Assembly: GCF_009708035.1 (NCBI RefSeq)
Contig: NZ_WMBQ01000001.1
Location: 806,001 to 870,000 of the forward strand
Direction of reading: 5' to 3'
From: Hyphomicrobium album
GTDB lineage: Bacteria; Pseudomonadota; Alphaproteobacteria; Rhizobiales; Hyphomicrobiaceae
DNA length: 64,000 nt
Made by a program: the position numbers and the translations under genes. The notes under the pieces are model-generated. The model did no database searches. It saw only the letters and a program-made list of their open reading frames with translations, and was not told the origin of the DNA. Below, one piece after another: positions 42,616 to 58,610 of this stretch. Each line of letters begins with the position of its first letter. Position 1 is the first letter of the stretch.

Positions 42616-43020
42616 TCACTTGCATTGCTTGAAGACCAGCGGCTCGGGGCCGTAGACGTCCTCGCTCACGACGGCGAGGGCCCCGTCCGCCGCGGAGGTC
42701 ACGGCCAGCTCGTAGGCTTCGGCCGCGCCCATCTCCTCGCAGTCCGCCTTCACCGTCCAGCCATTATCCGCCGCCGAGGAGGAGCGGAACTTGCAATGCA
42801 CCTCCCGCGGGCTCGTGATCCCCTCCGGTGTCAGCACCTCTTGCGAGATTGCCCCCACCAGCTCCTTGGAAAAGGGCTTCCCCTTCCCGAGCAGCTTACA
42901 ATCCTCCGGATCCAAGGCGTATTTGCCGGCGATGAAGCTGAAGTCTTCGGCCGCCACCGGCATCGATGCTGCTAAGGCAGCCGCAAGGCCCAGGGCCACA
43001 CTCGATAGATAGCCACGCAT
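42616..43020 (-). CDS. Small exported hypothetical protein
   Basis: 134 residues with a signal peptide (MRGYLSSVALGLAAALAASM). The mature domain has four cysteines (DCKLLG, HCKFRS, DCEEMG, KQCK), probably two disulfides, and alternating strands. GAGG lies 5 bases before the ATG. No family recognised. It is divergent from the cytochrome P460 gene; the 190 bp between hold both promoters. Confidence 0.68.
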   Translation of the reverse strand: MRGYLSSVALGLAAALAASMPVAAEDFSFIAGKYALDPEDCKLLGKGKPFSKELVGAISQEVLTPEGITSPREVHCKFRSSSAADNGWTVKADCEEMGAAEAYELAVTSAADGALAVVSEDVYGPEPLVFKQCK

Positions 43021-43210
43021 GAGATCCTCCACTCGGGCAGCACCAAGCTCGAACCCCCGCGCAATTCTATCGATTTGCGGCGCACGGAACCGGGAAACCG
43101 CGCCGGATGCTTACCGGCGTGACGCTGCAGACCTGAACGTCGGGCGCGATCGTCTGGCAACCGATCTTCCGCCATGCCACTATCGCGCGTCCATCGTGCA
43201 GGAGTACGCC

Positions 43211-43744
43211 ATGTCACGCATGCCGTCCGTGCTGATGTTGATCATCCCGGGATTGCTCGCCGCCTTCGCCGGCTCGGCCATCTCCGCGCCCGACAAGTAC
43301 ACCCTGCAGGTCCCTGGCGGGCTCGCCTTCGCCGAGTTCAAGGGCTACGAGGACTGGCAGACCGTCTCCGTCAGCCTGAGCGAGGAGGCGTTCGCCCTGA
43401 TCCTCGCCAACCCCATCATGATCGAGGCCTACCGCGCCGGCGCGCCCGGCAACGGCAAGCCGTTCCCCGACGGCTCGAAGATGGCGAAGATCCATTGGAA
43501 GCCGGAGACGAGCGCCGAGGCACCGGCGCCGACGAAGGTGGCAGGCGCGCTGCACGACGTCGACTTCATGGTGCGCGATTCAAAGCGCTTCGCCGACAGC
43601 GGCAATTGGGGCTACGCCCAGTTCAACTTCGACGACGCCACCGACACGTTCACGCCTTTGGGCGAGGGCGCCGCCTGCGGGTTCGCCTGCCACACGATCG
43701 TGGCGGGCAAGGACTACGTGTTCACCGCCTACCCCAAGCGCTGA
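43211..43744 (+). CDS. Cytochrome P460-family protein
   Basis: 177 residues with a signal peptide (VLMLIIPGLLAAFAGSAIS), so periplasmic. The fold is that of P460: YTLQVPGGLAFAEFKGYEDWQTV at the start, MAKIHWKPE in mid-protein, GNWGYAQFNFDD later, and a C-terminal heme site. The heme motif is Cys156-Gly-Phe-Ala-Cys160-His161, a C-x3-CH instead of the usual C-x2-CH. P460 proteins oxidise hydroxylamine; many homologues have unknown roles. Start: the ATG after AGGAG. No c-type cytochrome partner is adjacent. Confidence 0.85.
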   Translation: MSRMPSVLMLIIPGLLAAFAGSAISAPDKYTLQVPGGLAFAEFKGYEDWQTVSVSLSEEAFALILANPIMIEAYRAGAPGNGKPFPDGSKMAKIHWKPETSAEAPAPTKVAGALHDVDFMVRDSKRFADSGNWGYAQFNFDDATDTFTPLGEGAACGFACHTIVAGKDYVFTAYPKR

Positions 43745-45324: not shown

Positions 45325-45415
45325 GGCCTAACATCACTATGGGCGCATAAAAAATCTAGATGAGGCAAGGGGCGATTGTATAAGCGAGGACTAGCGATCA
45401 CTGGGGCTGGTGCGC

Positions 45416-46156
45416 ATGTCGGACAACAGCGCGATTGAGGTTCTTCATCTATCCAAGTCCTACGGGGAAAAGCTCGCGGTTGATGATGTGACGTTCGCCG
45501 TGCGGCGGGGCGAGCTTTTCGGCTTCATGGGCCACAACGGTGCCGGCAAGACGACGACGATCCGCACGCTGCTGGGGCTGTTGCGCCCTACCGGTGGCGG
45601 CGCCCGCGTGCTCGGGCACGATGTCGTGACCGAGAGCCTCGCCATTCGCCGCGTTGCCGGATATTTGCCCGGAGAGTATGCGCTGCCCAAGGACATGTCG
45701 GCGCGCGACTTCCTGCGCTACATCGGCGCCATGTTTGGCCACAGTGGATCAGCGCTTGAAAAGCGGATCACGGCCCTTCTCGAGCAGTTCGATCTCGGGG
45801 ACGTCGCGGATAGTCGGCTTGGAACGTTCTCATCCGGCATGACGCAGAAGGTTGGGCTCGCGCAGGCGCTCATAAACGAGCCGCGCGTGCTTCTGCTCGA
45901 TGAACCGACGGCGGGTCTCGATCCGATCGGGCGGCATGATACGCTCGCTCTAATCCGGCGGCTGGCCATCGAGAGCGGTGTCACCGTGTTGTTCTCAACG
46001 CATATCCTGAGCGACATCGAGCGCGTGTGCGAGCGCGTCGCCATCCTGCATCATGGGCGCCTGCTCGCCTACGGCGATCTGGCCGATCTCAAGCGTGCCA
46101 ACGGCGCACACCAGATGGACGATCTCTACCTCGCGCTCGTGACGGCCGCCACGTGA
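45416..46156 (+). CDS. ABC transporter ATP-binding protein
   Basis: 246 residues. Walker A GHNGAGKTTT, signature FSSGMTQKV, Walker B VLLLDEPTAGLD and switch His in LFSTHILSD are all intact. It is of the ABC-2 exporter type, driving the two permeases that follow. The stop overlaps the next start (GTGA). Start: the ATG of MSDNS; a GTG two codons upstream is possible. The transported substrate is unknown. Confidence 0.92.
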   Translation: MSDNSAIEVLHLSKSYGEKLAVDDVTFAVRRGELFGFMGHNGAGKTTTIRTLLGLLRPTGGGARVLGHDVVTESLAIRRVAGYLPGEYALPKDMSARDFLRYIGAMFGHSGSALEKRITALLEQFDLGDVADSRLGTFSSGMTQKVGLAQALINEPRVLLLDEPTAGLDPIGRHDTLALIRRLAIESGVTVLFSTHILSDIERVCERVAILHHGRLLAYGDLADLKRANGAHQMDDLYLALVTAAT

Positions 46157-46983
46157 GCATTGCAACGCCAATATCTGAGCTTGCTCAGCGCGCTGCGCCT
46201 GGCCGACTTTGGCCGTTCCTCGTTGAGGAGTATCGCCGCATCATGCACACGCGGCTGGCGGTGCTCATTTGGGCGGCATTGCTCTACACCGTCGCCGTCG
46301 TCCCCTTCCTGATGGCGAAGCCGCCGCCGGAAGTACTGCATTCGATCGAGAGCTGGCTCGGGCCGGGGTCCGTGCACGCCAAGCTGATCATGTTCGTGTG
46401 GGTCGACGCGGCTATGAACAAGCTGGCGGTGATCCTCGGGCCGTTGCTCGCGGGTGGCATCATCGCCGAGGAGCGGGCACGCGGCACGCTCGACTTGCTT
46501 GCGGCAAAGCCCATCCGCGCCGCTGACTATTTCACGGTCAAGGTTGCGGCCGCCGCCGCCGCGCTCACGACGTTCTATGTGGTCGTCAGCGCCGGTGCGC
46601 TCCTGACGTTCCCTTGGCGCGTTACGGGGTTCGATGTCGGCGACTTCCTGGCGCTGAGTAGCGTGCATCTGTTCGCCGCGCTGTTCGGGGTTGCGTTCTC
46701 TGCGGTCATGGCGGTCAGTTTCAAGCGCAGGCTCACGGCCATGCTGGTGAGCCTCGCGGTACTCGGGAGTCTGGTCGGCCTTTCCTTCCTCGGCTTCATT
46801 GATCCTACCTATCGGACCGCAAGCCTTCTCAACCCATTCTTTCTCGGCATCCTGCCTATTGGCAGCATCGGCGACTACCATGTTGGCGACATCGCGTTTC
46901 CTGTTCTGGCGCTGCTCGGGTTCAGCCTGATCGCCGTCCTGATCGGTCGCCGGATCGCCACGCGCGCCCTCGAAGAGGGCTGA
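46153..46983 (+). CDS. ABC-2 type permease, first subunit
   Basis: 276 residues with six membrane helices and the typical exporter segment GGIIAEERARGTLDLLAAKPIRAADY between helices 2 and 3. It starts at GTG overlapping the ATPase stop, so translation is coupled. The protein forms the membrane channel together with the next gene product. Confidence 0.87.
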   Translation: MSIATPISELAQRAAPGRLWPFLVEEYRRIMHTRLAVLIWAALLYTVAVVPFLMAKPPPEVLHSIESWLGPGSVHAKLIMFVWVDAAMNKLAVILGPLLAGGIIAEERARGTLDLLAAKPIRAADYFTVKVAAAAAALTTFYVVVSAGALLTFPWRVTGFDVGDFLALSSVHLFAALFGVAFSAVMAVSFKRRLTAMLVSLAVLGSLVGLSFLGFIDPTYRTASLLNPFFLGILPIGSIGDYHVGDIAFPVLALLGFSLIAVLIGRRIATRALEEG

Positions 46984-46985
46984 GG

Positions 46986-47810
46986 ATGGTCGTCTCGGAG
47001 CAACCGGTAGAGGTGGGAGTTCGCCCAGCTTCGCACGCGATGTTCGCTTCAATGCTGCGCGCCGAGCTTGCGCGCGCTTTCGCTTGGCGTCACGTGGTCG
47101 TCATCGTCTGCATGGCGTTGATGGGCGTTGTGCTCGCGGTCTGGCTGCCGACGCTTCCAGAGAGCGTCTTCCGCTTCTTTCAACGTGTCTTCCTGCTTCC
47201 CGCCTGGCCGGAGATCGCCGTGGCCAATGACATGGCCGGGCTGTTCTTCTTCGTCTATTGGATCGGGGTGTTCGACATGCTGAACATCTACGTGCAGCCG
47301 TTGGAGGAGCGACGCCTCGACCTTGTCTTGTCGAAGCCGCTGACGCGCGGGGAATATCTCTGGGCTAAGCTGGTTCCCATTCTCCTAGTAGTGGTTGCTC
47401 TGTTCGTGATCGGTGCCCTTGCGCATTGGCTTGCATTGCAAGCGGCCAGTCTTGCCTACCCACTGGCTGCCTTGGCCGGCGCCAATTTTGCCTTGCTCGG
47501 CTGGACCATCCTGCTCATTTGTTTGGTCAATCTGATTGTCTTATGGACAAGCGATACGTACACAGCGCTGCTCATCGCCTTCGTGCCGATGCTCGTGACG
47601 ATCCTCCCAGGCACGATCTACATGTATCGGCCGGACATCTTCGAGGCTTCATCGCACGTGCGCGACCTCGTCGTATTTCCCCTGAACCTCGTCTGGTATC
47701 CTGACTTCAGCGCAAGTTGGGGCTTCGCTCTCGGTGGATTGTTCCTCGCTCTCGCCGCGGGTCTCGTGGTGGCAGCAGGATGGATGTTCGAGATGAAAGA
47801 CGTACCGTGA
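46986..47810 (+). CDS. ABC-2 type permease, second subunit
   Basis: 274 residues, about six membrane helices. The loop VQPLEERRLDLVLSKPLTRGEYLW is the counterpart of the segment in the first permease, so the two are paralogues. It starts 2 bp after the previous stop. It is the last gene of the exporter operon. The layout of one ATPase plus two different permeases resembles antibiotic or copper-processing (NosFY-like) exporters. Confidence 0.85.
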   Translation: MVVSEQPVEVGVRPASHAMFASMLRAELARAFAWRHVVVIVCMALMGVVLAVWLPTLPESVFRFFQRVFLLPAWPEIAVANDMAGLFFFVYWIGVFDMLNIYVQPLEERRLDLVLSKPLTRGEYLWAKLVPILLVVVALFVIGALAHWLALQAASLAYPLAALAGANFALLGWTILLICLVNLIVLWTSDTYTALLIAFVPMLVTILPGTIYMYRPDIFEASSHVRDLVVFPLNLVWYPDFSASWGFALGGLFLALAAGLVVAAGWMFEMKDVP

Positions 47811-47868: not shown

Positions 47869-48378
47869 ATGACCGTTTCACGCCGCACAGCGCTCCACCT
47901 CATCACCGCTGCCGCGAGCATCAGCTTCGCCCCACTGAGCCGTGCCGACGACTCTGACTCCGCGCGCTCCGCCACGACGCACTCCGCCGACGCGCTCCCC
48001 ATGGTCACCGTCAACAAGGACCCCACCTGCAGCTGCTGCACCGGCTGGGCCGATCACCTGCGCGCTGAAGGCTTTCCGGTGACGGAGGTGGCGACGAGCG
48101 ACCTTAAGGCGGTCAAGACGCGCCTCGGCGTGCCGACGGAACTCGCCGGCTGCCACACCGCCGAGGTCGGCGGCTACGTCATCGAAGGCCACGTTCCCGC
48201 CGTTGCCATCAAGCGGCTGCTCGCCGAGCGACCGGCGGCGACCGGCCTCGCGGTGCCCGGCATGCCCGCGGGATCGCCCGGCATGGGCGGCGAACCGGAG
48301 ATCTACGAGGTGACGCTGTTCCACCCCGGCGGACGGACAAGCTTCGGCCGCTACCAGGGCGCCAACCAGCTTCCCTGA
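47869..48378 (+). CDS. DUF411 metal-binding protein, exported
   Basis: 169 residues with a signal peptide that includes an Arg-Arg pair (TVSRRTALHLITAAASISFA), possibly Tat. The DUF411 domain carries NKDPTCSCCTGWADHLRAEG and ELAGCHTAEVGGYVIEGHVPA. DUF411 proteins bind copper and are often linked to copper resistance. The methionine-rich segment VPGMPAGSPGMGG supports copper binding. It stands 58 bp after the ABC-2 operon. Confidence 0.87.
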   Translation: MTVSRRTALHLITAAASISFAPLSRADDSDSARSATTHSADALPMVTVNKDPTCSCCTGWADHLRAEGFPVTEVATSDLKAVKTRLGVPTELAGCHTAEVGGYVIEGHVPAVAIKRLLAERPAATGLAVPGMPAGSPGMGGEPEIYEVTLFHPGGRTSFGRYQGANQLP

Positions 48379-51869: not shown

Positions 51870-52070
51870 TTACTGCGCGTAGCAGGCCTCAGCGGGGGCC
51901 GAACCCTGCGGCATCGTGCTGTCGAGGATCTGCTTGATGGTGGCGAAGCAGCCGCCGCAGCGCGGCCGGCAGCCCAAGCAGGCATGCACCTGGGTGACAC
52001 GAAGCGGTTGCGAGGCCGCCGCCTGGGCGACATCAGAATCACGCAGCATATTGCAGGAACAAACGATCAT
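51870..52070 (-). CDS. Bfd-like [2Fe-2S] protein
   Basis: 66 residues. The Cys4/Cys6 pair (VCSCNM) and the later Cys31-x2-Cys34-x3-Cys38-x2-Cys41 cluster fit the bacterioferritin-associated ferredoxin family, with two extra cysteines. It starts at ATG with GGACGGAG upstream. It is 111 bp after the P450 stop on the same strand, and no bacterioferritin gene is present in the window, so it could be the electron donor of the P450. That link is inferred. Confidence 0.78.
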   Translation of the reverse strand: MIVCSCNMLRDSDVAQAAASQPLRVTQVHACLGCRPRCGGCFATIKQILDSTMPQGSAPAEACYAQ

Positions 52071-52181
52071 AGCGCTCCGTCCTTTCTCTTGCCTCCAAGG
52101 AGAGGATGCAGCGGCCTCAGGCGCGACGCTGTTTCGCCGGGCACAGGGCTGGAGCTTTCGCGGAGCGGCCGGAGGCAGGGT

Positions 52182-53564
52182 TTACGTGCGCAACGTCACC
52201 TCGAGCGGCATGCCGCCCTTCGGCTGCAGGGCGATGCGCGACAGGGGCACGGGCACGTGGCCGTCCGGCACCTTGAAGCGGGCGGCACGCACGAACGAGG
52301 CAAGCAAGATCGTCGCCTCGAGCATGGCGAACGAGGCGCCGATGCACACCCGCGGGCCGGCCCCGAACGGCAGGTACTGATAGCGCACCTGCTGCGCCTC
52401 GCGCTCCGGCGAGAAACGCTCGGGGTCGAAGCGCGCGGGGTCCTCCCACAGCTTGCGATGCCGATGGATGGCGAAAATCGGCATGACGATGATGCCGTCC
52501 TTCTTCACGGGCGTGCCGTCGAGGTCGACGTCGCGGGTGGCGACACGCGCCAGCGACGAGATCGGCGGGTAGAGCCGCATCCCTTCCTTGATGAACATGG
52601 CGACGTCGGTGAGCCGGCCGGCGTGCTCGGCGCCTATGGGCTCGTCGCCGGCAACCCGGCGCACCTCGGCCAGCAGGCGCTCCTCCCACTCGGGCGACAG
52701 CGCCACGAGATAGAGCATCCAGGCGAGGGACTTGGCCGACGTCTCGTGCCCGGCGAGCAGGAAGGTGAGCAGGTTGTCGACCATCTGCTCGTCGCCCATG
52801 CTCTGGCCGCTCTCGGGATCTTTCGCGTTCAGCAAACGCGACATCAGGTCGTCGCGATCGTCCGCGCCGGCACGCCGGCGCCGCACCAGATTGCCAACCG
52901 ACTGCCGCATGTCGATCTCGGCCCGCCGCCGCGCCGCCTTGCGCGGAAACGGCAACCAGCCGGGCAGCCCCAGCGCCCCGTAGACGCCCGGCCAGGAGAG
53001 CGGCAGAAGATAGTCGCGGTGGGCGCGCTCCAGCGCCTCCGTCACCGCCGGGTCGCGGCTGTGCAGCATCGTATCGGCGATGACGCCGAACGTGGCGCGC
53101 GTCGTATCCCGATCGACGTAGCGCACCGCGCCGGGCGCCAATTGGCGCCAGTCTTCGATCGCGGCCTCGGCCGCCGCCGTCATGACCGGCGCGTAGCGCT
53201 GAATTTCCGCCGGGCGGAACAGCGGCGCCGCTGCCTGCCGCTGCCACCGCCACTCGGGCCCGTGCGCCGTCAGGATGCCCCTGCCGAGCAGCTTGGAAAA
53301 AACGTAGCGCTCGATGATCGTTTTGGGGAACTCGGTGAAGTCGTCGAGCAGGATGCGCTTGATGCGCGCCGGATCGGCGACGTAGGTGATGCGATCGCGA
53401 TAGGTATACGTCCACTCGCGATAGATGATCGCCGGCGTAGCGCCGAGTGGGTTGCGGACGAAGGCGAGAAAGTATCCGGGCAGGCTGAGCGGCTCGGCGG
53501 GCGGGGTGAGAAACGGCGGGTAGATCCGTTCCCCCGCGCGCGCACTCTCCTCCGCCTGCGGCAT
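52182..53564 (-). CDS. Cytochrome P450, fatty-acid hydroxylase-like
   Basis: 460 residues. I-helix AGHETS (271-276), the E327-x2-R330 pair in EGMRLYPP, and the heme loop FGAGPRVCIG with ligand Cys407 are all intact. The order and spacing resemble the CYP4/CYP102 type that hydroxylates fatty acyl chains. No N-terminal membrane anchor and no fused reductase; a separate ferredoxin is needed, and a Bfd-like protein follows. It is the fifth gene of the cluster, 52 bp after the acyltransferase. Confidence 0.9.
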   Translation of the reverse strand: MPQAEESARAGERIYPPFLTPPAEPLSLPGYFLAFVRNPLGATPAIIYREWTYTYRDRITYVADPARIKRILLDDFTEFPKTIIERYVFSKLLGRGILTAHGPEWRWQRQAAAPLFRPAEIQRYAPVMTAAAEAAIEDWRQLAPGAVRYVDRDTTRATFGVIADTMLHSRDPAVTEALERAHRDYLLPLSWPGVYGALGLPGWLPFPRKAARRRAEIDMRQSVGNLVRRRRAGADDRDDLMSRLLNAKDPESGQSMGDEQMVDNLLTFLLAGHETSAKSLAWMLYLVALSPEWEERLLAEVRRVAGDEPIGAEHAGRLTDVAMFIKEGMRLYPPISSLARVATRDVDLDGTPVKKDGIIVMPIFAIHRHRKLWEDPARFDPERFSPEREAQQVRYQYLPFGAGPRVCIGASFAMLEATILLASFVRAARFKVPDGHVPVPLSRIALQPKGGMPLEVTLRT

Positions 53565-53616
53565 GCCAGCTCGCTCCCGCTTCAAGGCTCGCCTCTTGTG
53601 AGTGCGGGCGAACCGG

Positions 53617-54630
53617 TCAGTCTTTAGATTGCAGCAACGCCGCCCAGCGGTCCATGACCGTCTGTGTCCAGCCGGCCTCGCGCTTGATGGAGGCGTGCGC
53701 CTCGACGATGAGCGCCAGGCGCCCGTCACAAACGATCGCGCCGACGCCGACCGGCGAGGTCTTGGTCACCAGCGGGCACACGCACCACTGGCCGACGCCC
53801 TTCCAGGCGCCGAGATTGGAGAACGAGCCGACGAACGGGCGATTTTGAAAGCGCGCCATCTGCAGCTTGAAAACCTGACCGATACCTGAGAGCCCGATGA
53901 TCTGGCTGAGATTGAGAAAGGTCCAGCTCGCCCAATGATCGCGACGGCGGAGCGCAAGCTTGATCTGCTCCTGCACGCACCCCGGCGTAGCGTCGGCGGA
54001 AATCTCGAGCTGCAGGTAGCCGCTCTGGTTCGCCGTATCACGATCGAGCTGCACGGGGCCGCGCAGGTTGACCGGCATCATCCAAATCCGCGGCCCGGCC
54101 TCGAGCTCGGGCTCGGTGGCGACAGCCAGCGTGTGCATCAACAGGCCGTTGAGCGAGACGCCCTGGGCACGCGCCTTCGCCTCCATGCGCCGCGTGGTCG
54201 CCGCACCGAAGAATTGCGTCGCGAACTCGTTGCCGGCCTTGGTGCGATAGCCGGTCCAGTTCGCGTCATAGCCACGCCACGCCGCAGCCGGCGTCGGCGT
54301 GCGCAGGCACATCTGTATCACCGCGCCCAAACGCTTGCCGAGCGACGGCATGCGGCTCTGGCGCGCCGGAACCTTGAACTCCCGCCCGACGTGCGCCTTG
54401 CGCAGCACATGTACGAAACCGCCGAGACCGTCGTATTCGGCGTGCGAAGGAAACACCCAGTCGATGCGCCCGTCCTCGGCTCGCTGGCCGCCGCGCATGC
54501 CGATGAACTCGCCTTCGCTCTCGACGATGCGAAACCACAATCCGGTCCAGTCGATGCGCCGCGTGAGTGCGCGCGGCGGCTCGGCGATGGAGGCTTCGAA
54601 CTCTGGAGTGCGGGCGGCGATGGCGGTCAT
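53617..54630 (-). CDS. Condensation-fold acyltransferase (PapA/NRPS C-domain-like)
   Basis: 337 residues. The catalytic motif HxxxDG is present as His63-AEY-Asp67-Gly68 (SHAEYDGLGG). Later blocks, VSLNGLLMHTLAVA and IWMMPVNLRGPVQLDRDTAN, fit the chloramphenicol-acetyltransferase-like fold shared by Pap acyltransferases and NRPS condensation domains. It would join an acyl group to an amine or alcohol. No NRPS is present, so it may act alone. 22 bp after the methyltransferase; GGAGC precedes the ATG. Confidence 0.78.
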   Translation of the reverse strand: MTAIAARTPEFEASIAEPPRALTRRIDWTGLWFRIVESEGEFIGMRGGQRAEDGRIDWVFPSHAEYDGLGGFVHVLRKAHVGREFKVPARQSRMPSLGKRLGAVIQMCLRTPTPAAAWRGYDANWTGYRTKAGNEFATQFFGAATTRRMEAKARAQGVSLNGLLMHTLAVATEPELEAGPRIWMMPVNLRGPVQLDRDTANQSGYLQLEISADATPGCVQEQIKLALRRRDHWASWTFLNLSQIIGLSGIGQVFKLQMARFQNRPFVGSFSNLGAWKGVGQWCVCPLVTKTSPVGVGAIVCDGRLALIVEAHASIKREAGWTQTVMDRWAALLQSKD

Positions 54631-54652
54631 GGTGGGTGCTCCGTCTTTGGTG

Positions 54653-55525
54653 TCAGGCTTGGCCCGCGATGATGCGGACATGCCCCAGGGTGCGCCCGAG
54701 GGGAGAATTATTCTGTGTCGTAAGGTACAGGCGCTCGAGGTCCGCCGGCCCGACGTGCGATGTCGTCCGCAAGCCGCGCTGCGCCAGGAAGCGCGACGCG
54801 TTGCCCGGCACCAGTCCGAAGAGGAACGGCTCGCCGATCTTCTGCAGCCAGCGCGCCACCGCATCGCCGCCGTAGGTCGACGTATCGCCGTCGACAAAGC
54901 TCTGCAGCGCGTAGTCGAACACGATGCTGCTGCCCTTGCCGCAACCGGCAACGAAGCCGAGCACATCATTCACCGCCTGAACCGGCAGGTAGTAGGAAAC
55001 GCCTTCCCACAGGAACAAGGTCTTGCCATCACGGCGGAAGCCGTGCTGCGGCAGCAGCTGGCGAAACGACTGCTTGGCGAAGTCGATGCCGATGAGGGTG
55101 ACGTTCGAGGGCAGCGCCGTGTTGCTGGTCGCCAGCAGCTCGATCTTCCGCGCCTGCGTGCCGGGATGGTCCAGCTCGAACACGCGAACACCGCGCAGCT
55201 CGTCCTTGAAGCGGAAGGCGCGCGAGTCGTAGCCGGCGCCGAGGATGACCACCTGCTCGACGCCGTCGCGCAGGGCAGCAAGCAGCGCATCGTCGAAGTG
55301 GCGGGTGCGGGCGATGGCGAAGCAATAGCTGCCGGGGGCGGCGCGCTCGATCAGCTTGCTCAGGATGCGTTGCGGCGTCAGGGCCAACAGCAGCCGGCTC
55401 TTCAGGCTGAGGAACTGGCGGGCGAACCGGTCGATGCACGGGGTGGCGAGCTCCCGCTCGCCGACGGCCAGCGCGCGCAGCGCCGCGAGCGTCTCGGCCG
55501 ATTGGATGGCGGTGAGCTGGGACAT
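54653..55525 (-). CDS. Class I SAM-dependent methyltransferase, TIGR00027/LCMT-like
   Basis: 290 residues. The SAM motif VVILGAGYDSRAFRF, then VFELDHPGTQARK and FLWEGVSYYLP, are those of the leucine carboxyl methyltransferase-like family (TIGR00027, Pfam LCM), best known from mycobacteria. The usual reaction is carboxylate O-methylation, for example of a fatty-acid end. It starts 3 bp after the FcoT stop, so coexpression is certain. Gene order suggests that its substrate is the product of the previous two enzymes. Confidence 0.87.
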   Translation of the reverse strand: MSQLTAIQSAETLAALRALAVGERELATPCIDRFARQFLSLKSRLLLALTPQRILSKLIERAAPGSYCFAIARTRHFDDALLAALRDGVEQVVILGAGYDSRAFRFKDELRGVRVFELDHPGTQARKIELLATSNTALPSNVTLIGIDFAKQSFRQLLPQHGFRRDGKTLFLWEGVSYYLPVQAVNDVLGFVAGCGKGSSIVFDYALQSFVDGDTSTYGGDAVARWLQKIGEPFLFGLVPGNASRFLAQRGLRTTSHVGPADLERLYLTTQNNSPLGRTLGHVRIIAGQA

Positions 55526-55528
55526 GGC

Positions 55529-56098
55529 TCAGTGCACCGTGTTCGGGTTGTAGGAGGGGCTGAAGGCCAGCGTCACGGAGCCCTTCGCCTTCACGCCTTC
55601 GCGGTCGGAGAAGGTGATGGTCGTGAAGAAGAACCAGGCGTTGCCAACCGCCGAGATCTTGTTGATCGACAGCTCGGCGGTGAAGTCGTTGCTGTCGAGC
55701 GGCTTGAAGTAGCGGCTCTCCAGGGCGACGATCATCATCGCCGGCAGCTGGTGATGCTTGAACTCGGTCATCGTCGGGATCTGGACGTCGCCGGCGCGCA
55801 CCTTGTGCATGACGCCCGCGTCGATGCAGCCGGCGAAGAGCACATAAGCGAGCTGGTTGTAGCAGATGTTGAACTCGACCGCGTTGAAGTGGCCGGTGGA
55901 GTCGATGTAGCAGCTCTCGGGGATCGAGAAGCGGCCCTTGCCGACGATTAGCTTCTGTTCGGTGCCGGCGATCGCCGTCTTGTCGTTGACCTCGACGATC
56001 TCCGCCGCCTTCAGGTAGGTGGCGTTGTCGCGGTAGGGCTTCAGGATCTCGGCAGTGAACTCGTCGGCAATCGCGATCGGGAACTGCGGTTCCGTCAT
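55529..56098 (-). CDS. FcoT/ScoD-type hot-dog thioesterase
   Basis: 189 residues. The signature STGHFNAVEFNICYNQLAY (67-85) is that of M. tuberculosis FcoT (Rv0098), and it is followed by FKHHQLPAMMIV, as in that family. In isonitrile lipopeptide clusters the homologue ScoD/MmaD adds glycine to an enoyl-ACP to give a beta-glycyl acyl chain. Start: the ATG of MTEPQF, which gives the family's usual length; upstream ATGs at 56239 and 56251 would add a cysteine-rich stretch. It follows the ScoE-like gene and precedes the methyltransferase by 3 bp. Confidence 0.85.
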   Translation of the reverse strand: MTEPQFPIAIADEFTAEILKPYRDNATYLKAAEIVEVNDKTAIAGTEQKLIVGKGRFSIPESCYIDSTGHFNAVEFNICYNQLAYVLFAGCIDAGVMHKVRAGDVQIPTMTEFKHHQLPAMMIVALESRYFKPLDSNDFTAELSINKISAVGNAWFFFTTITFSDREGVKAKGSVTLAFSPSYNPNTVH

Positions 56099-56280
56099 GG
56101 CGGGGGCCTCGATCTCGAGCATCGCCTGGGCTGCGGCAAGGCGCTTGCACGCGCCGCTGCAGGGTCCGAGGGCGCAAGCTTTCGTAGGGTTAGAAACTAC
56201 CGTCGCAGTGGAACCATCGATTTGAGCGATTGAACACATGGCCGTCCCCATGGGTTTGAGCTGCAATTTTGCATTGAGCG

Positions 56281-57159
56281 TTAGGCAGCAACCTTCGAAT
56301 TGATCTGGCTGGCGCAGAGCGGCATGCCGTCCTGCAAGGTGATGCGGTACATCATCGTCTCTTCCTCGAGGCCTTCGTTGCGGCCCGAGGTGTGTCCGAG
56401 GAAGCGATTGTCCCAGATGATGACGTCGCCCATCGACCACTGCACTTCCTTCACGAAGCGCGGCGTCTCGGCGAAGTCGAAGATCTCTTTCAGGAGGCTC
56501 GCCGATTCATCGAGCGAGGCGTCGGCGATCGACAGCGTGAAGCCGCGGTTGCCGTAGAGCACCTTCTCCTTGGTGTAGGGGTGCTCGATCACCGCCGGAT
56601 GGCGCACGGCCGGGCAGAGCTTGTCGATGGTGGCGAGGATTTCGAAGATGTCGTAGCCGGCGTCCTGGGTGCGCACCTTGTAGCGCATCTTGCCGGTGTG
56701 CATGAACTCGCGGCCGGCGAGCTTCTTCTTGGTGGCGGCCGGCAGCGCCTTGTAAACGGCGGCCATGTCGATGAAGCGGGTGGAGCGCGCGAAGTTCTTC
56801 GGCAGAACCTTCGGCATCAGCATGGTGATGAACTTGGGGTCCTTCTCGAAGGACGTGTCGGAGTGCCAGTAGCCGCCGGTGCGGGCGACGCCGATCTGCT
56901 TGCCGTCCTTCTTGACGTTCGAGGAGACGAAGATCAGCGGGAATTCGGGGTGGTGGTAGTTGTCCTGCAGGTAGGGAACCGGGTTACCGACGCGTTTGGC
57001 GAAATCGCAGTACTGGGCTTCAGTGAGGTTCTGGTCCTTGAGGACGATGAGGCGGTTCTTGTAGAGGAGGTCGCGCAGCTTCTTGATTTCGGTCTTCGTG
57101 GCCTTGGCAGCGTTTACTCCCGTAACGCTGCATCCGAGATCGAGGGGTGCGGTTTTCAT
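56281..57159 (-). CDS. ScoE/Rv0097-type non-heme iron oxygenase, isonitrile-forming
   Basis: 292 residues of the TauD-like Fe(II)/2-oxoglutarate family. Iron ligands: His99-x-Asp101 in YWHSDTSF and His256 in WDNRFLGHTS. The 2-oxoglutarate arginine is Arg272 (MMYRITLQD). Stretches such as IFVSSNVKKDGKQIGVARTG and TRFIDMAAVYKALP closely follow ScoE of Streptomyces and Rv0097, which oxidise and decarboxylate a glycyl acyl chain to an isonitrile. Start: the ATG with GGAGC upstream. It is the first gene of the cluster. Confidence 0.85.
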   Translation of the reverse strand: MKTAPLDLGCSVTGVNAAKATKTEIKKLRDLLYKNRLIVLKDQNLTEAQYCDFAKRVGNPVPYLQDNYHHPEFPLIFVSSNVKKDGKQIGVARTGGYWHSDTSFEKDPKFITMLMPKVLPKNFARSTRFIDMAAVYKALPAATKKKLAGREFMHTGKMRYKVRTQDAGYDIFEILATIDKLCPAVRHPAVIEHPYTKEKVLYGNRGFTLSIADASLDESASLLKEIFDFAETPRFVKEVQWSMGDVIIWDNRFLGHTSGRNEGLEEETMMYRITLQDGMPLCASQINSKVAA

Positions 57160-57738: not shown

Positions 57739-57813
57739 GGTCCCTTCGTCTATCGGTTAGGACGCGAGATTTTCAATCTTGAAAGACGGGTTCGACTCCC
57801 GTAGGGACCGCCA
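57739..57813 (+). tRNA. tRNA-Glu (anticodon TTC)
   Basis: The acceptor stem GGTCCCT pairs with AGGGACC, followed by the discriminator G and an encoded CCA. The anticodon stem-loop GATTTTCAATC has TTC at its centre. The T loop is GGTTCGACTCC, and the D loop contains GGTTAGGA. All four arms fold. Confidence 0.96.
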
Positions 57814-57950: not shown

Positions 57951-58532
57951 TCAGGCGAAGCGGAAGACCGCTGCAGCCACCGCGCAGGTCCAGCGACTGC
58001 TCTCATCTCCCTCGGCGTACGCCGTCACCGATGTACTGCCGATAATGAGGCTGCTCGTTTCGTAAACCCGTTTGCGCTCATTCCACGCAGCGTCAGGGTC
58101 GAACTCGATACCGAGCGTGGAAGCCAGCATGGAGGCAGCGAGATCCTCGGCATACTCGCCGCTTTGTTCTCGCGTCATACCGTACCCATGGTGCTCCGAA
58201 ATGTAGCCATACATTGACGGCTCCGATGGGCGCGCCAGCCCGATGCTCGAATTAACACGGCGCCCCGGCTCGTTTGTCTCGGCGCGCGCCAGGACGGTGA
58301 AGGTGATTTCGCCCGGCAGCAGTGTGGCTGCACCTTCTTGCCGCTCCAGCTCGATGCAATTGGGCGGTAGGATCGAGGAGATGCTCACAAGATTCTGCTG
58401 TTCTATGTCCGCGTCCCGAAGCGCCAGCTCGAATGCAGTAAGTCGTTCGCGATGAACGCCGATGCCCTGTGTCAGAAAGAAGCTTTTCGGGACTAGCTGC
58501 ATGACCGTTGCATCCTCGCTGGGCTCATTCAT
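57951..58532 (-). CDS. Pyruvoyl-dependent arginine decarboxylase
   Basis: 193 residues. VPKSFFLTQGIGVHRERLTA opens the fold, and the self-cleavage site is LVSISSILPP, between Ser52 and Ser53; cleavage converts the second serine into the pyruvoyl cofactor. The C-terminal part has NSSIGLARPSEPSMYGYISEH. The enzyme makes agmatine, the first step to putrescine. Start uncertain between ATG 58532 and ATG 58502. No agmatinase gene is near. The pyruvoyl type is less common in Proteobacteria than the PLP type. Confidence 0.87.
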   Translation of the reverse strand: MNEPSEDATVMQLVPKSFFLTQGIGVHRERLTAFELALRDADIEQQNLVSISSILPPNCIELERQEGAATLLPGEITFTVLARAETNEPGRRVNSSIGLARPSEPSMYGYISEHHGYGMTREQSGEYAEDLAASMLASTLGIEFDPDAAWNERKRVYETSSLIIGSTSVTAYAEGDESSRWTCAVAAAVFRFA

Positions 58533-58610
58533 TCTATCTGATAGCGTGGGGAGATGACCCAATGCTGACGAGGTGAGCGTTCAGCGCGGACGGGCGGCGG
58601 ACGAGAAGTG

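Follow-up and report, generated by a model that had tools for sequence, protein, structure and literature searches.

We analysed a 64,000-nucleotide stretch of the Hyphomicrobium album genome (contig NZ_WMBQ01000001.1, positions 806,001 to 870,000; hereafter the window), which contains a run of six intact reading frames on the minus strand at positions 51870-57159. At its head are a ScoE-like Fe(II)/alpha-ketoglutarate (alpha-KG) oxygenase with the TauD fold (292 aa, 56281-57159; PF02668, E 1.9e-38) and an FcoT/ScoD-type hot-dog thioesterase (189 aa, 55529-56098; PF10862, E 2.7e-42 for the long form). They are followed by an S-adenosylmethionine-dependent methyltransferase of the LCM family (LCMT; 290 aa, 54653-55525; PF04072, E 1.1e-41), an orphan protein that is possibly a PapA/condensation-fold acyltransferase (337 aa, 53617-54630; PapA_C, E 0.0024, sub-threshold), a cytochrome P450 (460 aa, 52182-53564; PF00067, E 2.2e-70), and a BFD-like [2Fe-2S] protein (66 aa, 51870-52070; PF04324, E 3.4e-07). 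A preliminary description, made from the sequence alone, had proposed an isonitrile-type cluster with an adjacent oxygenase and thioesterase and with a methyltransferase, a P450 and a [2Fe-2S] protein on the same strand, and the family matches bear out these gene assignments.

The intergenic gaps are, in gene order, 182, 3, 22, 52 and 111 bp. An alternative FcoT start at 56239 would give a 236 aa protein and reduce the oxygenase-FcoT gap to 41 bp; the gaps of 3-111 bp given previously are correct with this start and incorrect with the 189-aa start. If the upstream start is used, the frame at 56099-56239 would encode a putative 47-residue extension with several cysteines (CALGPCSGAC). A scan for consensus sites gave none resembling a promoter or a terminator on the operon strand; on the plus strand it returned two promoter-like sites (0.7 expected) and six terminator-like sites (4.9 expected).

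Family placement of the encoded proteins

The oxygenase scores 248.1 bits with the ScoE equivalog model NF049937, compared with 112 bits for the taurine dioxygenase model, and its top PDB sequence matches are SfaA and ScoE (entries 6l86/6dch). An AlphaFold model built from 22 alignment rows (predicted local distance difference test, pLDDT, 92.7) gave template modelling (TM) scores of 0.87-0.91 against ScoE and SfaA, the best fold match being ScoE at 0.91, versus 0.80-0.82 against the TauD structures of E. coli and P. putida. ScoE, SfaA, Rv0097 and MmaE are the closest of the solved structures, with TauD behind them; identity to the mycobacterial Rv0097 is about 32% in the fold alignment. A careful tree of 41 rows, from which a second TauD protein of one related locus (L009_TauD2) was left out, places the oxygenase together with ScoE on one side of a split (support 100/97) whose other side holds four TauD-type outgroups, in agreement with the ScoE-clade membership proposed earlier. 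In a 91-row quick tree that outgroup row was placed among the ScoE rows, with a branch length of 10.

The thioesterase matches FcoT (PF10862) with 144.4 bits against a gathering cut-off of 27. By sequence its closest PDB entries are 5wsx/5wsy and 2pfc, the mycobacterial Rv0098; the best match, 5wsx, we take to be SAV606. Family search thus identifies it as an FcoT/ScoD relative, as previously suggested. The methyltransferase contains a GAGYDSR motif and scores 201.8 bits on TIGR00027, over the cut-off of 93.55. Carboxyl methylation is known in the LCM family from TcmP and LCMT1.

The P450 carries the motifs FGAGPRVCIG and AGHETS, and its top PDB matches are 7wzl (P450), CYP4B1, CYP3A4 and CYP102-type enzymes. 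A relative elsewhere in its own genome is 35% identical, and the best match in each of seven same-genus genomes is 27-37% identical. For the BFD gene there is a second copy elsewhere in the genome (57%), and the protein has no match in the seven same-genus genomes. The label of condensation-fold acyltransferase given previously to the orphan protein had to be withdrawn in favour of a putative one, its basis being the PapA_C match below cut-off and a SHAEYD motif. No relative of this protein was found in 189 other genomes of the class, among plasmids or at 83 other loci with an FcoT relative, and a PDB search returned one chance match (E 0.71). A single-sequence structure model of it was discarded (mean pLDDT 39). 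The putative acyltransferase, like the BFD gene, is weakly tied to the cluster.

A recurring ScoE-FcoT-LCMT core

To place the pair among its relatives, named genomes were scanned with a four-row FcoT alignment and the best 80 of 177 relatives were examined, 18 of these 80 loci being shorter than 20.4 kb. With three plasmid loci (relatives of the window FcoT occur in three of 72,556 plasmid records) and the window, this gave 84 loci, not all of them independent because L029 and L037 share part of the same contig. A ScoE-type gene is present at 82 of the 84, which argues that the ScoE-FcoT pairing is not due to chance. A ligase is found at 66 loci and a non-ribosomal peptide synthetase (NRPS) part at 62, and an LCMT at only five: the window and four of the named loci (L006-L009).

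Two of these four (L006, L007) are Sporocytophaga metagenome-assembled genomes (MAGs), in which the core is accompanied by a Rieske protein. At L008 a FabA-like dehydratase, a ketosynthase and an acyl carrier protein (ACP) lie directly upstream of the core, which fits the making of enoyl-ACP, and a Rieske protein and an AlkB-like protein (labelled by eye from its sequence) lie downstream. The L008 contig is labelled Williamsia, but it is probably mis-binned and really from Bacteroidota, judging from its GC content of 49% and from Bacteroidota-like genes recognized by eye. L009 is a gammaproteobacterial MAG in which the core is joined by a second TauD. Among the examined loci, L006-L009 are the nearest to the window in both ScoE (52-60%) and FcoT (45-49%), and neither a ligase nor an NRPS part was seen at any of the five LCMT loci.

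The five oxygenases form one clade in the careful tree (100/98) and again in the quick tree (support 98). The five thioesterases are one clade in an 84-row tree (Shimodaira-Hasegawa-like approximate likelihood ratio test 99), and the five LCMTs are one clade (100/99) against six outgroups, which are plasmid-borne relatives 29-37% identical to the window LCMT. ScoE, FcoT and LCMT therefore occur together, each protein as a single clade, across two phyla. The preliminary description had proposed a survey for the same six-gene order, and this order was found at none of the 83 other loci; we rejected it as a unit, since at L006-L009 only the three-gene core recurs, and relatives of the acyltransferase, the P450 and the BFD gene are all missing beside it. 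PF10862 was found in none of 59 relatives of the window's genome, none of 384 genomes of the class and none of 397 of the phylum (overlapping samples). Given such distantly related hosts, and how seldom the family occurs around the window, the core has likely moved between lineages.

Upstream of the operon lies a tRNA-Glu gene on the plus strand (57739-57813, ARAGORN), an anchor that is conserved in the genus and does not belong to the pathway. The six operon proteins and the operon DNA have no match in stretches of 14-19 kb around this tRNA in five same-genus genomes. The ends of an operon insertion cannot be named, because the neighbours of the operon in the window also differ from those at tRNA-Glu in the same-genus stretches. 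A pyruvoyl-dependent arginine decarboxylase gene (57951-58562; PF01862, E 4e-54) adjoins the tRNA gene, and a cytochrome P460 domain protein is encoded at 43019-43741 (PF16694, E 3e-31). A link to copper through a DUF411 gene in the left flank (47869-48378) was set aside, since this gene is on the opposite strand and 3.5 kb away. A neighbouring RecJ-like gene has its nearest plasmid-borne relatives in Shinella and Sinorhizobium (54-55%), consistent with an alphaproteobacterial host, and a 16S search of the window's genome, positive in nine of 14 controls, returned nothing.

Outside the LCMT-linked clade, ScoE-FcoT pairs accompanied by a ligase, NRPS parts or both are found beyond Actinobacteria, in Cyanobacteriota, Methylococcaceae, Planctomycetota and Bacteroidota (including L010, L012, L014, L017, L018, L043, L055 and L081). 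In the quick tree the ScoE proteins of these loci belong to a group of 29 rows that have Q or T at the position of ScoE R195 and lack His299. Two Methylomonas koyamae loci, L054 (8123-8968 and 9099-9950) and L065, have two tandem ScoE-type genes before FcoT. Two plasmid-borne clusters have neighbours that fit metal uptake: a TonB-dependent receptor and major facilitator superfamily transporters beside the NRPS-containing cluster of Halotia (L003, 4421-6928), and a heavy-metal P-type ATPase with a PCu(A)C copper chaperone beside that of Streptomyces clavifer (L004, 1-2327). Six further loci show neither a ligase nor an NRPS in the DNA covered (L029, L037, L045, L069, L070 and L077), although L045 is truncated where its contig stops. 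Three of them, from the actinobacteria Saccharopolyspora and Streptomyces catenulae (L069, L070, L077), combine KASIII, ACP, ScoE and FcoT, with ketosynthase matches on the opposite strand, and are candidate producers of further isonitriles or beta-amino acids made without an NRPS.

A proposed pathway and its alternatives

Passages of PMC7949033 identify H132, D134 and H295 as the iron ligands of ScoE, and R310 and K193 as binding the two substrate carboxylates. The same passages report zero product for Y96F, Y101F and R195Q and reduced product for Y97F; H299Q was inactive, with zero succinate, and R157 variants had lower activity. In the window oxygenase the iron triad is H99, D101 and H256, and together with the substrate residues numbered Y96, Y101, K193, R195 and R310 in ScoE it is fully kept. 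In ScoE numbering the window enzyme and its four kin all have Y96, L97, Y101, H132, D134, R157, K193, R195, H295, R299, T306 and R310. Among 86 ScoE-type rows R157 and K193 are invariant and R195 is present in 57; R157 is found in none of five outgroup rows. At position 299, 44 of the 86 rows have His and the remaining 42 have Tyr, Lys, Arg, Ser, Ile, Thr or some other residue, and Arg occurs there in the five LCMT-linked rows only, a placing that depends on the alignment because these five carry an insertion in that loop.

From homology, intact genes, conserved residues, the recurrence of the core as single clades, and loci without ligase or NRPS, we infer the reactions, the methyl ester and the product that follow. 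We propose, with a probability of roughly 45%, that the cluster is a compact variant of the ScoD/ScoE isonitrile pathway, free of NRPS and ligase, in which the methyltransferase caps the carboxylate. FcoT would take a (2E)-enoyl thioester from fatty-acid synthesis, attach glycine at its beta-carbon, then hydrolyse the thioester to release a free 3-[(carboxymethyl)amino] acid; FcoT-type glycine addition en route to beta-isonitrile acids is reviewed in parts of PMC11284099. Using Fe(II), oxygen and two alpha-KG, the ScoE-like oxygenase would oxidize and decarboxylate the glycyl part to give a beta-isonitrile acid. According to the passages of PMC7949033 on its reaction, ScoE acts on an untethered acid and gives an untethered product, so the product here would be a free acid.

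In the lipopeptide clusters the ScoC ligase re-activates the isonitrile acid for the NRPS. Here, the LCMT may instead turn the freed carboxylate into a methyl ester, replacing both ligase re-activation and NRPS condensation; this is the simplest reading, because ligase and NRPS were not found and a PF04072 methyltransferase is present at each LCMT-linked locus. The chain could then be oxidized by the P450 in the window, by the Rieske protein with or without the AlkB-like protein at the Bacteroidota loci, and by the second TauD in the gammaproteobacterium, with the putative acyltransferase perhaps esterifying the resulting hydroxyl. The isonitrile chemistry and lipid product put forward in the preliminary description are retained as predictions. 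A hint that the chain may be short, contrary to the "lipid" of that description, comes from one residue: the window oxygenase has Phe207, also Phe in ScoE, at the position of Rv0097 G204, and PDB titles pair the Rv0097 G204F variant with the short substrate CABA.

The ScoA-E clusters of Streptomyces coeruleorubidus resemble the window in that a ScoE-type oxygenase adjoins ScoD/FcoT, in the order also seen at Streptomyces L004 and L005, and their ScoE shares its catalytic residues with the window oxygenase except for Y97 and H299. They differ in their acyl ligase, ACP and NRPS, which are absent from the window cluster, and in lacking an LCMT in the core; likewise, the FadD10-type ligase, ACP and NRPS of the mycobacterial chalkophore locus are not in the window cluster. 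The window locus therefore falls outside the definition of an isonitrile lipopeptide cluster, in which an acyl-ACP ligase and an NRPS accompany the pair. An ordinary isonitrile lipopeptide pathway with its ligase and NRPS elsewhere in the genome would be compatible with the six ScoC-type ligase relatives found there (30-35% identical, none inside the cluster) and with the NRPS condensation domains present somewhere in three of the four kin genomes. As the preliminary description stated, however, ligase and NRPS are missing from the cluster, and no condensation domain (PF00668) was found anywhere in the window's genome, which is rated 100% complete, by a search that was positive in four of 14 controls. 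None was found in the L009 genome either, and the other three kin have none in the DNA covered around the core. We regard this explanation as highly improbable.

The absence of an NRPS is in itself not unprecedented: amycomicin and aerocyanidin are fatty-acid-like and are not known to need an NRPS, and L069, L070 and L077 also show none in the DNA covered. For this reason, what is new about the locus is its LCMT-linked core and the hosts that carry it, rather than the missing NRPS as such. Amycomicin and aerocyanidin are described in sections of PMC13273461 as epoxy isonitrile antibiotics with P450 tailoring; those sections class the amycomicin cluster with type I polyketide synthase (PKS) clusters and report three P450s for amycomicin, compared with one in the window. 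The P450 in the window cluster would suit an NRPS-free isonitrile fatty acid of this type, in which the acid stays free and is oxidized by the P450 while the methyltransferase acts on a hydroxyl. Against this, all five loci have the LCMT in their core although the oxygenases differ, so that the LCMT more likely acts on a group common to all, for example the carboxylate. A product of the amycomicin type is accordingly quite improbable.

Several observations weigh against an isonitrile product capped by methylation. Although the profile searches proposed earlier returned ScoE and FcoT as the best families, neither protein reaches the corresponding equivalog cut-off: the oxygenase is far below that of NF049937 (248.1 against 400 bits) and the thioesterase well under that of NF049938, the ScoD equivalog (112.2 against 250 bits). 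The kin L006, L008 and L009 are also under both cut-offs, with 241-245 and 116-123 bits. The NF049937 cut-off is passed by Streptomyces L024 (506 bits) and Nostoc L013 (430 bits) and missed by Symploca L010 (265 bits) and Methylobacter L014 (239 bits). In the rooted tree the remaining 32 ScoE-type rows form the sister group of the five oxygenases (split 91/77, not starred), and the verified isonitrile formers ScoE and SfaA thus do not bracket the five-locus clade. ScoE Y97 is Leu in all five, and H299 is Arg (Arg260 in the window oxygenase), so the alpha-KG pair of ScoE is only half kept, with R157 present. The six cluster genes include no ACP gene, transporter or regulator, and the ABC transporter at 45410-47810 is on the opposite strand, 4 kb from the cluster. 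Because all five loci form one clade, their lack of ligase and NRPS counts as one evolutionary event, and carboxyl methylation by the window LCMT is predicted by family precedent.

Some of these points would equally suit a beta-amino acid pathway, in which FcoT adds glycine, the oxygenase N-dealkylates the adduct by one hydroxylation to a 3-amino acid, and the LCMT esterifies it. In the route to 3-aminononanoate of cremimycin (CmiS1/CmiS2) and SAV606, the CmiS1/SAV606-type thioesterase is related to the window FcoT, and the account in portions of PMC11284099 shows that these relatives feed beta-amino acids too. There a flavoenzyme acts next, in place of which the window has an Fe/alpha-KG oxygenase that would stand in for CmiS2, and the window cluster contains no PKS. 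The position of the LCMT-linked clade as sister to, and outside, the other ScoE-type rows and its differences at H299 and Y97 favour this pathway, whereas the other isonitrile-linked residues are kept (Y96, Y101, R195, R157 and K193) and the ScoE, SfaA, Rv0097 and MmaE structures are closer than TauD. On balance we consider a beta-amino acid product unlikely.

The isonitrile reading with a methyl-ester cap can be extended, tentatively and with considerable doubt, to the clade as a whole. The five loci may represent a separate ScoE/ScoD branch across Alphaproteobacteria, Gammaproteobacteria and Bacteroidota that makes methyl-ester-capped beta-isonitrile fatty acids from a minimal cassette of three genes, needing no ligase or NRPS, with an Arg rather than His299 anchoring alpha-KG, and with a lineage-specific oxygenase acting on the chain.

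Implications for isonitrile biosynthesis

Isonitriles are rare, reactive metal ligands. The diisonitrile lipopeptides of mycobacteria are chalkophores, according to parts of PMC9600254. Among the titles and abstract openings listed by searches of open PMC papers, we found no description of an LCMT-linked ScoE module. The five-locus clade offers a natural test of the need for His299 in ScoE-type enzymes. If the proposed pathway is correct, the three-gene, NRPS-free cassette would be a very small genetic route to an isonitrile acid derivative, easily moved into laboratory hosts, and it would predict a class of methyl-ester products that peptide-directed searches could overlook.

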